A stretch of 64,000 nt of DNA from Pseudoselenomonas ruminantium (lineage in GTDB: Bacteria; Bacillota; Negativicutes; Selenomonadales; Selenomonadaceae), in NCBI RefSeq assembly GCF_900113715.1, contig NZ_FOQK01000012.1:1-64000 (forward strand), in the 5' to 3' direction. Under the pieces are notes generated by a model. It made no database searches, had not been told where the DNA came from, and saw only the letters and a program-made list of their open reading frames with translations. The position numbers were made by a program, and so were the translations under genes. This document shows, in pieces, positions 4,328 to 56,304 of this stretch (the stretch's first letter is position 1; each line of letters opens with the position of its first letter).

Positions 4328-5152
4328 ATGGAGAGAAGCTACGAGAAATATTTCCGCCAGAACCGGCTCCCGCACCTCTGGTGCCCGGGCTGCGGCAATG
4401 GCATTGCGATGAAAGCTATCGTGCAGGCCATCGAGAAGAAGGGTCTGTCCCAGGATAATACCGTCATCGTTTCGGGCATCGGCTGCTCGTCGCGGGCGTC
4501 GGGCTATATGGATTTTGACACGCTGCATACGGCACATGGCCGTGCCATTCCGTTTGCTACGGGCATCAAGCTGGCCAATCCGGATCTCAACGTCGTCGTC
4601 ATCACGGGCGACGGCGACTGCACGGCTATCGGCGGCAATCACTTCATCCACGGCTGCCGCCGCAACGTCGACCTTACGGTGGTGCTGTTCAACAACAATA
4701 TCTATGGCATGACGGGCGGCCAGGCTTCGCCGATGACGCCGCTGGGCAAGAAGGCCACGACAGCTCCGTACGGCTCGGTGGACAGGCCTTTTGATGCCTG
4801 CCATCTGGCCGAGGCTGCCGGCGCTACCTATGTGGCCCGGTCGACGGCCTTCCATGAGAAACACCTGGTCGACATGATCGCTGGCGGTTTTGACAATAAG
4901 GGCTTCTCCTTCATCGAGGCGCTGGTCCAGTGCCCGACGGCTTATGGCCGCAAGAACAAGATGGGCAGTCCTGCCAACATGCTCATGTGGATGCGCGACA
5001 ACGCCGTCATGAAGGCGGCCTGGGACAAGCTGCCCGCTGAGGCGAAGGCGGGGGAGAAGTTCCCGATCGGCTGCTTCTATCAGGCCGAAGCGATGGATTA
5101 TGATACGGCCTACGATCAGGTCATCGAGCGGGCAGGAGGTGCGTCGAAATGA
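4328..5152 (+). CDS. korB: 2-oxoacid:ferredoxin oxidoreductase, beta (TPP) subunit
   Basis: A 274-residue subunit that binds thiamine diphosphate. HLWCPGCGNG near residue 17 opens the domain, and the GDGDCTAIGGNH segment followed by LFNNNIYGMTGGQ is the TPP/Mg-binding motif. The ATG at 4328 is preceded by GGGGAGG at 4314-4320. It overlaps the gamma gene by four bases. Its length is normal for stand-alone beta subunits, without the C-terminal extension of fused pyruvate oxidoreductases. Confidence 0.9.
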   Translation: MERSYEKYFRQNRLPHLWCPGCGNGIAMKAIVQAIEKKGLSQDNTVIVSGIGCSSRASGYMDFDTLHTAHGRAIPFATGIKLANPDLNVVVITGDGDCTAIGGNHFIHGCRRNVDLTVVLFNNNIYGMTGGQASPMTPLGKKATTAPYGSVDRPFDACHLAEAAGATYVARSTAFHEKHLVDMIAGGFDNKGFSFIEALVQCPTAYGRKNKMGSPANMLMWMRDNAVMKAAWDKLPAEAKAGEKFPIGCFYQAEAMDYDTAYDQVIERAGGASK

Positions 5153-6003: not shown

Positions 6004-6201
6004 ATGATCACATCCTTTGTCAGCATTCTGTACATCCCGTACAGATTTTTTATCACGATTTCTGAATATATTTATAATAATTCGCGGATTGGGGATAAAA
6101 TCCTGCTAAGATTGCAGAAAGGCATTAAGTTTCTGGATAAATTGCAGTTTGTCTGTTAGTGCGAGATTACAATAAGCTTGGTACAGCTCAGCTGGGGTGC
6201 T

Positions 6202-6386
6202 GGTGGGTGTACTTTTTCTCCGCTCCGCTAAATGACCCGCGCTGGCAGGGTGTACGTACCTAGATACATGCGCCGGGCAGGCCGGCGGCGCGCCAATACA
6301 TCTTGGCGTTCTAGTTTATATCTACCGCGTGCCATCCCTCACTGCGTTCGGGCAATCGCTCCGTCTGCGAAGAAAGTGTACCCACC
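6202..6386 (+). ncRNA. Candidate structured RNA core in element copy A
   Basis: 6202-6218 (GGTGGGTGTACTTTTTC) can pair with 6369-6386 as 17 base pairs with one bulged G. In copy B the partner bases T6204-A6384 become C-G, and the wobble T6210-G6378 becomes C-G. Inside the loop, GCGCCG (6270-6275) pairs with CGGCGC (6286-6291); in copy B this is GTGCCG/CGGCAC, again a compensatory change. Transcription is not shown by the sequence. Confidence 0.5.
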
Positions 6387-6729
6387 ATCGCCCTCCGATA
6401 TGTTGGAACAAGCCTGTTCCTTTCCGGCGATAGGCAACGAATTACATCGATGTGCTTGCTGCGGGAGAAACGGTTCGTACCACCTCAGATTTCCATTACC
6501 AAAGGGGCGAACGGGGTAGTGCTTCTTTCTGTCTGGAGCGACTGTCCTGCGCAGCAGGACTGGGCCGTAAGCGCATAAGCTAGACTCCGATGTGTACGCC
6601 GCGACCTGGTGACGGGAGCAGGTAACTAAGTCCGCAGAACTAGGCATACGGTCCATTTAGCGGAAACAGAAAAAGTACTACCCCGTGAACCCCGCGCTTC
6701 GTAGTAGCAGGATTCCATACGGACGCATA

Positions 6730-6780
6730 CACCTCATCCGAGCGCTTCGCGCCCACCTTCCCCTCGGTAAGGGGAAGGCT
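6730..6780 (-). repeat. Short intergenic repeat (CCTTCCCC hairpin, GATGAGGTG end) inside copy A
   Basis: On the minus strand this reads AGCCTTCCCC, a complementary GGGGAAGG arm, then GGGCGCGAAGCGCTC and GGATGAGGTG. The same unit occurs at 30152-30198 and in copy B at 56198-56248, with a variant at 15003-15050. Confidence 0.7.
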
Positions 6781-6834
6781 GGAACTAAACCGTCAAACTG
6801 CAATTTGCCTGCGGCAAAAACTATTTTGTTGCGT

Positions 6835-30149: not shown

Positions 30150-30151
30150 TA

Positions 30152-30198
30152 GCCTTCCCCTGGAGGGGAAGGTGGGCGCGAAGCGCTCGGATGAGGTG
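30152..30198 (+). repeat. Short intergenic repeat overlapping the gmhB start
   Basis: AGCCTTCCCCT pairs with AGGGGAAGG, then GGGCGCGAAGCGCTC and GGATGAGGTG. The sequence matches, in reverse orientation, the unit inside element copies A and B, apart from the loop of the first hairpin. It begins three bases after the hldD stop and ends in gmhB coding sequence. Confidence 0.8.
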
Positions 30199-43650: not shown

Positions 43651-45075
43651 ATGGTGTATAAATTGAATCTTGGAGAAGAGAACGAACAAGTTGAGTTTAA
43701 AAAGAGCACTAGCGAATTGAAGGAGGCCGTATATTCAATTGTTGCCATCCTTAATAAACATGGTGTTGGTGATGTGTACTTTGGTATTCGTAACGATGGG
43801 ACCGTGGTGGGACAAAATATTACCGATCATACGTTGCGTGAGGTAAGTCAGGCTATCCGTACACATATTAAGCCGGTAATTTATCCGGAAATTACTAAAG
43901 AGATGATTGATAATCGTCAGGTTGTGCACGTCAAGTTCAAGGGATACGCGCAACCCTATTTGGCGTATAATATTCCGCGGATTCGTGTAGCAGACGAAGA
44001 TTTGGTTATGGATCAGGACGCTTATGCAGATATGCTTAGAATTCGTGAGGACAAGGGGCGTAATTGGGAACAACGTGAGTCAGAGTATCAGATTTCGGAT
44101 GTAAATACAGGGGTGTTAAAAGATTATTTGCAACGTGCGAAACAGGTGGGACGAATCACGTTTTTGGAAGAAAATCCCATTGTAGTGTTGAATCGGTTGA
44201 ATCTTGTTCGTGGCTCGAGATTGCTCAATGCAGGCGCAGCATTGTTTGTGGAAAGCAATATAAACGAAATTCAAATGGCGAAATATGCCTCGGATGAGCG
44301 GTTGACCTTTACGGATATTCGTAGAGAGACAGGATCAATTTTCAAATTGGTTCGTATGGCGGAGCAATACTTAGTAGATGCTATGGATTGGCGTGTAGAA
44401 TTCAATGGCAGTATGAAGCGGGTAGAGGTTCCTGAGATTCCAGTTGGTGCATTACGTGAAGCGCTAATCAACGCTTTTGCGCATCGTTCCATTGAATCCG
44501 GGGAAAGTATTGATGTAGCTGTTTATCGCAATCGGATAGAGATATATAGCCCTGGGGAGTTTCCAAATCGCTTGACGCCACAGATGTATATTGAAGGAAA
44601 TGAACGTCCCATCAGGCGAAATCCGTTGATTACGCGTGTGTTATACTATTCGCAGGATATGGAGAGTTTTGCGACAGGGTTGAAGCGTATTCAGCATTTA
44701 TGTGATGTGGCAGGATGTAAGGTGGATTATCGTAAGGATGCGTATGGATTTACTGTAATTTTTTCGCGTAGAAAAGAGCATCACTCCCAAGTCACCCCCC
44801 AAGTCACCCCCCAAGTCACCCCCCAAGTCACCCCCCAAGTCACCCCCCAAGTAGTATTCGATGACCCTAAAATAGTTCGCTTGTTGGCATTTTGTGAAAC
44901 GCCTAGGTCATTGCAAGAGATGATGCAATGCTTAGAGTTGACAGATCGTAAGCATTTTCGCCGTCGGTATCTGAATCCATTATTAGAATCGGGTCAGTTG
45001 CGTATGACAATGCCGAATAAGCCACGGAGTAGTTTGCAGAAATATATTGCTGTACCTGCTGAACAGAGGGAGTGA
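43651..45075 (+). CDS. AlbA_2-domain ATP-binding transcriptional-regulator-like protein
   Basis: A 474-residue protein. The N-terminal AlbA_2/schlafen domain is intact: EENEQVEFKKSTSELKEAV near residue 9 and VYFGIRNDGTVVGQ near 43. A GHKL-type ATPase region follows (ALREALINAFAHRS near 270, VYRNRIEIYSPGEFPN near 290). A run of TPQV repeats at 380-400 links to a winged-helix-like C-terminus (SLQEMMQCLELTDRKHFRRRYL). Role unknown, probably DNA or RNA binding regulation. Compare the truncated relative at 32446. Confidence 0.8.
   Translation: MVYKLNLGEENEQVEFKKSTSELKEAVYSIVAILNKHGVGDVYFGIRNDGTVVGQNITDHTLREVSQAIRTHIKPVIYPEITKEMIDNRQVVHVKFKGYAQPYLAYNIPRIRVADEDLVMDQDAYADMLRIREDKGRNWEQRESEYQISDVNTGVLKDYLQRAKQVGRITFLEENPIVVLNRLNLVRGSRLLNAGAALFVESNINEIQMAKYASDERLTFTDIRRETGSIFKLVRMAEQYLVDAMDWRVEFNGSMKRVEVPEIPVGALREALINAFAHRSIESGESIDVAVYRNRIEIYSPGEFPNRLTPQMYIEGNERPIRRNPLITRVLYYSQDMESFATGLKRIQHLCDVAGCKVDYRKDAYGFTVIFSRRKEHHSQVTPQVTPQVTPQVTPQVTPQVVFDDPKIVRLLAFCETPRSLQEMMQCLELTDRKHFRRRYLNPLLESGQLRMTMPNKPRSSLQKYIAVPAEQRE
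44788..44847 (+). repeat. Five tandem 12-bp units (CAAGTCACCCCC)
   Basis: Five perfect copies encode the TPQV repeat in the AlbA_2 protein. Units are multiples of three, so expansion keeps the frame. Each holds a six-C run where units join, which is prone to slippage. Confidence 0.92.
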
Positions 45076-55564: not shown

Positions 55565-55601
55565 AGTCCGCTGACGCAGGAAAGTGTCAGCGGACTTTTT
55601 T
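55565..55601 (+). terminator. Terminator after the penicillin-binding protein
   Basis: AGTCCGCTGAC (55565-55575) is the exact complement of GTCAGCGGACT (55586-55596), followed by T to 55601. Element copy B begins immediately after. Confidence 0.9.
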
Positions 55602-55666
55602 GCAAATTGCAGTTTATCTGTCCGTACGTGGTTAAAACAAACTCGGTACAGCTCAGCTTGGGTGGG

Positions 55667-55854
55667 GGCGGGTGCACTTTTTCTCCGCTCTCGCTAAATG
55701 ACCCGCGCGGCTGCTTTAGTACGTACTTAGATACATGTGCCGGGCAGGCCAGCGGCACGCCAATACATCGAAACGTTCTAGGAAGTACCTACCGCGGGCC
55801 ATCCCTCACTGCGTTCGGGCAAATCGCTCCCGCTGCGAAGAAAGTGTACCCGCC
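55667..55854 (+). ncRNA. Candidate structured RNA core in element copy B
   Basis: 55667-55683 pairs with 55837-55854; C55669-G55852 replaces the T-A pair of copy A, and C55675-G55846 replaces a T-G wobble. The internal hairpin GTGCCG/CGGCAC (55737-55742, 55753-55758) replaces GCGCCG/CGGCGC. Expression is unproven. Confidence 0.5.
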
Positions 55855-56197
55855 TCCGCCCTCTGCTACGTTTGGATAAGCCTGCTTTGTTCCGGCATTA
55901 GGCTACGAATTACAGCGATGTGCTTGTTACGAGAGAAACGGTTCGTACCATCTCAGATTTCCATTACCAAAGGGGCGAACGGGGTAGTGCTTCTTTCTGT
56001 CTGGAGCGACTGTCCTGCGCAGCAGGACTGGGCCGTAAGCGCATAAGCTAGACTCCGATGTGTACGCCGCGACCTGGTGACGGGAGCAGGTAACTAAGTC
56101 CGCAGAACTAGGCATACGGTCCATTTAGCGGAAACAGAAAAAGTACTACCCCGTGAACCCCGCGCTTCGTAGTAGCAGGATTCCATACGGACGCATA

Positions 56198-56248
56198 CAC
56201 CTCATCCGAGCGCTTCGCGCCCACCTTCCCCTCGGTAAGGGGAAGGCT
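56198..56248 (-). repeat. Short intergenic repeat inside element copy B
   Basis: Same unit as 6730-6780, in the same place within the element. Confidence 0.7.
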
Positions 56249-56304
56249 GGAACTAAACCGTCAAACTGCAATTTGCTGTATTACGGGGCATCTATTCCTT
56301 AAAA

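Follow-up and report, generated by a model that had tools for sequence, protein, structure and literature searches.

The window, a 64-kb stretch of DNA, contains two complete copies and one truncated copy of a dispersed element. Copy A is 668 bp long and occupies positions 6139–6806 of the forward strand, with genes for a POR-type oxidoreductase upstream and an apbE gene downstream. Copy B occupies positions 55604–56274, also on the forward strand, between a gene for a PASTA penicillin-binding protein on one side and rseC/rnfC-type genes on the other. Both are of the form we call type I, both are intergenic, and the genes around them are ordinary chromosomal genes. A first-pass annotation had listed both full copies, with the correct start for copy A but with copy B beginning at 55602 instead of 55604, and its list lacked the third copy. 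This copy spans positions 1–335 (no strand assigned), where it is cut by the start of the contig, and represents the right half of a second form, type II, which is 724 bp long, has a different right half and is also present in the genome of the window. It is 97–99% identical to copies L271 and L263, carries the terminal repeat at 321–332 with one mismatch, and contains a weak match to the repeat unit described below at 88–286 on the minus strand (20.7 bits, E 4e-4).

The ends of the full copies are exact 12-bp inverted repeats, AAATTGCAGTTT and AAACTGCAATTT, as had been claimed. A search for the end motif places them at 6139–6150 (plus strand) and 6795–6806 (minus strand) in copy A, and at 55604–55615 and 56263–56274 in copy B; AAATTGCAGTTT is itself nearly palindromic. 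Unit D1 of copy A, at 6193–6395 on the plus strand (model R1, 186.4 bits), consists of a long quasi-palindromic stem with side hairpins, one of which, GCGCCGGGCAGGCCGGCGGCGC, lies at 6270–6291 on the plus strand. The central palindrome ACATCGATGT (6444–6453, unstranded), located in the conserved core of the copy alignment, separates D1 from D2, an inverted homologue of D1 at 6503–6694 on the minus strand (D1 model, 65.9 bits, E 1.2e-15). In copy B the same model places D1 at 55658–55863 on the plus strand (179.7 bits) and D2 at 55971–56162 on the minus strand (65.9 bits). A short dispersed repeat that is distinct from the element and begins with CACCTCATCCGAGCGC sits in the right tail of copy A (6729–6779, plus strand) and recurs at 30151–30198 and in other genera. 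Short GC-rich dispersed repeat sequence is seen in the window at 6730–6765, 30163–30198 and 56198–56233 and occurs in other genera too, and the interval 44774–44864 holds about seven tandem units of the 12-bp repeat CACCCCCCAAGT. None of three open reading frames located within the copies (95, 105 and 103 aa) matches a Pfam family; a protein-coding element was rejected on these grounds, in line with the earlier statement that no protein explains the sequence.

Copies A and B are 91.1% identical overall. All 60 alignment columns at which they differ fall within 6139–6483, and there are none in the final 323 bp. Since differences spread evenly would cluster in this way with an estimated chance of about 1 in 10^17, the right halves of the two copies have recently been exchanged or copied.

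Two homologous quasi-palindromic units of approximately 195 bp, inverted relative to each other and enclosed by the 12-bp inverted ends, make up the element. This follows from the match of the left-unit model to the right unit on the opposite strand, which scores 66–128 bits in the two window copies and in L172, L181, L217 and L247, whereas the same model scores 19–46 bits against its own reverse (full type I copies from five sources were given to the D1 model). The hairpin units thus alternate in orientation; their position is extragenic in both window copies and, judging from adjoining terminators, presumably in the others as well. We assembled a set of 85 copies from 12 genomes, excluding six sequences that lack two ends (L188, L214, L215, L220, L221 and L244) and setting the ends by hand for eight (L173, L175, L176, L179, L224, L229, L231 and L236). 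In this set 77 of the 85 copies are 599–617 bases long, including 2-base margins. Other arrangements of the unit were seen: in L363, from another genus, three units follow one another in direct tandem at intervals of about 224 bp (positions 1054–1690), and by eye one copy in genome G014 has a unit flanked by different terminal repeats.

The window's own genome contains 31 matches to the element by DNA search and 33 by covariance model, together with 62 end motifs at up to one mismatch, compared to 10 for a reversed-pattern control. By hand count, 33 of its 104 contig ends, about a third, lie within 600 bp of an end motif, which indicates that the repeat breaks the assembly. Across 60 genomes, the window's own included, the left-unit model R1 matches 17 of 22 genomes of the genus, 2 of 15 from other genera of the family (G031 with 22 matches and G035 with 1) and 0 of 23 from other families of the class; the E-values of this model are rough, its filters lose weak matches, and each match represents a unit rather than a whole copy, be it the left unit, the right unit or the reverse strand of one. 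With at most the best 41 candidates scored per genome, 15 of the 17 matching genus genomes give 20–41 matches; G014 gives 27 and G015 gives 2. A plain DNA search finds matches in 22 of the 60 genomes, several of them solely because of a separate short repeat located at 591–641 of the element. The phage records searched contain no match to the element, and no title among the openly accessible papers found on repeats in Selenomonas or Negativicutes concerns such an element. Two copies in G011, L175 and L176 (at 2821428 and 6361), are apparently identical and lie one close to each end of a genome assembled as a single contig; this duplicate is probably an untrimmed assembly overlap. In NC_002139.1 (L419), a record described as the S. 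ruminantium plasmid pSR1, a truncated element spans the origin (4406–4692 and 6–159). The genes of this record resemble chromosomal ones and include two for radical SAM proteins and one of the HAMP/Cache type, the last overlapping the element. Pfam matches were obtained for its four annotated genes and include no replication gene, and positions 146–2107 match the G017 chromosome beside an element at 82.6%. Rather than a plasmid, NC_002139.1 may represent a fragment of chromosome joined at the element.

The copies are strongly associated with intrinsic terminators. With a relaxed detector, 51 of 84 copies have the end of a terminator T tract no more than 10 nt away, compared to 11 of 824 control anchors, which were placed at random 100–600 bp away in the same flanks and were not restricted to intergenic DNA. 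A stricter detector gives 26 of 84 copies compared to 6 of 1641 controls. L176, which has the same sequence as L175, was left out of these counts. Where a terminator side was found within 100-nt flanks it is within 9 nt of the element in 54 of 59 cases, on the 5′ side in 33 and on the 3′ side in 21. In the window, inspection by eye identifies an intrinsic terminator at 55566–55601 (plus strand), its T tract stopping 2 nt short of copy B, and, adjoining the third copy, a hairpin at 338–387 (unstranded) that has A and T tracts and resembles a terminator; copy A has no adjoining terminator. This placement, together with long retention at the same loci, would agree with the element being a chromosomal structure that is useful to the host where genes end, such as a supercoil sink or a barrier to transcription, by analogy with gyrase-binding BIMEs, which are thought to act in these ways. 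We regard such a role as rather unlikely, given that the element is shortened or nearly lost at some loci and that five of the 22 genus genomes have no model match, bearing in mind that the filters lose weak matches.

The first-pass annotation had proposed a large structured RNA on the basis of compensatory changes, with cruciform DNA as the alternative. The changes themselves are readable as claimed: the stem 6202–6218/6369–6386 is kept in copy B by a T-A to C-G and a T-G to C-G change, and the hairpin at 6270–6291 by a C-G to T-A double change. With many homologues from related genomes, a comparison that had been suggested, the covariation is supported. After 14 of the 85 copies were dropped at 96% identity or above, the 71 non-redundant copies show 51 same-branch double changes from one Watson–Crick pair to another over 144 predicted pairs, compared to 0–5 when the partners are slid, so that the covariation is above chance. 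Of 182,710 column pairs, the four that rank highest belong to the predicted structure, as do 9 of the top 50, against an expectation of 0.04. The 144-pair structure was derived partly from covariation, and an independent repeat used structures folded from one sequence and scored on other genomes only. In this repeat, standard pairs make up 71–83% compared to 34–55% with slid partners, and there are 91–223 double-change cells compared to 17–91; one of the eight cases, the right unit of G005 with 91 cells, falls within the slid range. A significance threshold similar to that of R-scape, implemented in our own script, finds only one pair at E<0.05 among the 71 copies without weighting and none with sequence weighting. 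Compensated changes are a minority, with 43 events compared to 328 that break a pair (65 and 37, respectively, in RNase P RNA), which suggests that the constraint on structure is weak or arises from templated exchange.

To distinguish a structured RNA from a DNA-level structure, we compared G-U with A-C deviations in the 116 pairs common to the folds of both strands and found near symmetry, with 193 compared to 174 cells and 107 compared to 92 events. RNase P RNA from 30 related genomes, used as a control, is asymmetric, with 33 compared to 6 cells and 24 compared to 3 events (Fisher p 3e-4 for events); this control is the more conserved, at a mean identity of 0.84–0.93 compared to 0.73 for the element. 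Pairs unique to the fold of one strand necessarily favour the G-U of that strand (269 to 44 on the plus strand). Consensus folding energies are almost the same for the plus and minus strands, at −268.9 and −267.2, whereas the two strands of RNase P differ by 27–35 kcal. The symmetry of the deviations and the equal energies, set against the asymmetry of RNase P, favor structure at the level of DNA, with the caveat that an RNA produced from either strand would look symmetric too.

A structured non-coding RNA gene, or a cis-acting RNA in read-through transcripts, would account for the large stable fold (single-strand z = −4.9 relative to 20 shuffles), for covariation that is real and for the many copies directly downstream of terminators. 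We consider it improbable. It sits poorly with the lack of a G-U excess, the equal folding of both strands, the occurrence of opposite orientations at one site, and the high copy number and similarity of copies within a genome. The element also has no match among Rfam covariance models, in line with the earlier remark that it was not a recognized RNA, and a known RNA family was rejected on this basis. The original proposal therefore stands as to covariation and a large conserved secondary structure, while strand symmetry and inversion in place speak against its RNA component; the cruciform alternative fits the symmetric deviations, the equal folds and the presence of both orientations per site better.

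The sites are old and shared between genomes. All nine G011 junctions tested are also filled in G012, as judged by a flank spacing of 590–644 bp. Inspection of five candidate empty sites by eye found no clean one: L304 and L306 are short forms with both ends, L307 is a partial copy, L305 has about 70 extra bases, and L303 is nearly empty relative to L208, its roughly 9 additional bases resembling an end. Reading of the flanks places two of three short forms in G017 at loci that hold full copies in G004 and G013. Despite the age of the sites, copies tend to resemble others of their own genome, a pattern of concerted evolution that is not instantaneous. In a tree of the copies, those of G001, G002, G005, G013 and G017 each form one clade, those of G003, G009, G011, G012 and G020 are mixed, and G004 is not a single clade. 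The orthologous pairs L002/L201, L174/L219, L239/L217 and L242/L218 lie apart, and the orthologues L173/L229 of the close genomes G011 and G012 pair together. In 24 of 335 within-genome pairs, the two halves of the element differ from each other by more than 10 points.

Elements are also inverted in place. Both flanks are matched at 17 orthologous loci, a count that accepts contigs broken inside the element, and at 7 of these the element is inverted in at least one genome. This is the case for the A and B loci of the window, at which G000 and G001 read one way and G002 the opposite, and for L271/L204, L203/L095, L174/L219, L237/L179 and L239/L217. Orientation is the same at L173/L229, L175/L231, L178/L227, the L234 group, L242/L218 and L070/L209, and at L206, L212, L210 and L085, where the G000 side lies on two contigs. 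Full-length pairs with at least one matched flank comprise 16 in the same orientation and 8 inverted (n = 24). Rows that match only unmasked parts of the element (about 200 bp, mostly to L085 and L076) were set aside, as were single-flank rows, which go both ways (for example, inverted for L015/L077 and L016/L214, and the same for L018/L140). The input to this comparison was 36 of 47 Selenomonas loci (29 FPAX and 7 SVBZ) among the matches listed for an 18-base pattern, which also include many chance matches. Both orientations of one locus with matching junctions are found between species only; none of three G011/G012 loci is inverted, nor is the G003/G009/G020 locus. This and the grouping of L173 with L229 imply that neither flipping nor homogenization is fast. 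By eye, the rare end AATTGCAATTT stays with its flank at L271/L204 while the inside of the element has turned, and the end AAGTAAGT does so at L237/L179. Such flank-bound end variants suggest that a crossover took place internal to the ends, not that the element was reinserted.

The near-palindromic inverted ends and the between-species inversions in place could also suit a family of promoter or terminator invertons acting as switches on the expression of neighboring genes, and inversion of Correia elements is cited in PMC10969869. This explanation seems very doubtful for the present family because the element is nearly symmetric, such that flipping it may change little, and because inversion is not seen between the closest genomes.

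We give somewhat more weight to the element being a large MITE, although on balance we doubt it. It would then derive from an insertion sequence, be non-autonomous and be mobilized in trans by a transposase recognizing the AAATTGCAGTTT ends. Its discrete ends, terminal inverted repeats, dispersal and non-coding character agree with this origin, as do the internal-deletion forms, the one nearly empty site and the absence of a target duplication visible by eye. Movement might conceivably proceed through replacement of an inverted repeat, by analogy with IS1272, which, according to PMC5678879, targets inverted repeats and stem-loops and replaces them in place without a target-site duplication. 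Against a MITE, no insertion sequence with these ends is present in G011 or G017 among the exact end motifs listed, no clean empty site occurs among the five candidates, all tested G011 sites are occupied in G012, and terminal variants remain with the flank in two inverted pairs, unlike the outcome of transposition. An autonomous parent at the 2.3-kb loci of G017 was considered and rejected: these loci hold a DUF772/DDE insertion sequence that is a passenger. It is present in six copies (L343, L346, L348, L350, L351 and L352) of 100% reported identity, five in the GC-rich feet of element stems and one elsewhere, with a 9-bp duplication at all six.

Overall, the element is probably a mosaic dispersed DNA repeat of the BIME/MITE kind whose hairpins are recombination substrates; the likelihoods that we attach to the alternatives overlap with one another and with this reading. 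Hairpins of REP/BIME-type repeats serve as recombination substrates. By the proposed mechanism, the conserved hairpins would act as DNA, either as an extruded cruciform or as a single-strand hairpin, and recombination on them, by an enzyme or RecA, would flip elements and copy halves between loci. Lodged mostly at the ends of intrinsic terminators of Selenomonas and its relatives, the element could persist as a non-coding and non-autonomous sequence for which an RNA product would be unnecessary. A more specific proposal, which we consider unlikely, is a new system in which a host recombinase inverts elements at their 12-bp ends and swaps half-elements among dozens of loci. Such a recombinase would recognize branched DNA hairpins of about 195 bp adjoining terminators, and would keep the copies of a genome alike and their hairpins paired without an RNA or an encoded transposase; no recombinase or transposase is linked to the element so far. 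More generally, the family illustrates how covariation, commonly taken to prove that an RNA is structured, can emerge in dispersed repeats of DNA, and a test of strand symmetry (G-U compared to A-C, with RNase P as control) separates RNA from DNA structure. With its inversion in place, exchange of half-elements and preference for terminators, the family provides a natural setting in which the maintenance and copying of large DNA hairpins can be tested.

Several known systems share features with the element. Group IIC introns insert beside intrinsic terminators, whereas the element has no Rfam match and no protein family in the inner reading frames tested, occurs in both orientations and has terminal inverted repeats. 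IS1272, a member of the IS1182 family, encodes its own transposase, and the element does not. The MITEs known as Correia elements, RUP and BOX have in common with it terminal inverted repeats, a non-coding sequence and dispersal; the element differs in being longer, in its two internal homologous units and old shared sites, in having no target-site duplication by eye, and in that no parent insertion sequence was found in the two genomes inspected. A Y1 (RAYT) transposase was rejected as a required partner, there being no PF01797 match in seven element-bearing genomes (G001, G002, G006, G011, G012, G014 and G017). With BIMEs and REP/REPIN sequences, the element shares alternating hairpin units, an extragenic location and many copies. 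REPs measure 20–40 bp compared to approximately 195 bp for the unit of the element and, unlike BIMEs, the element is a fixed inverted dimer inside 12-bp terminal repeats.
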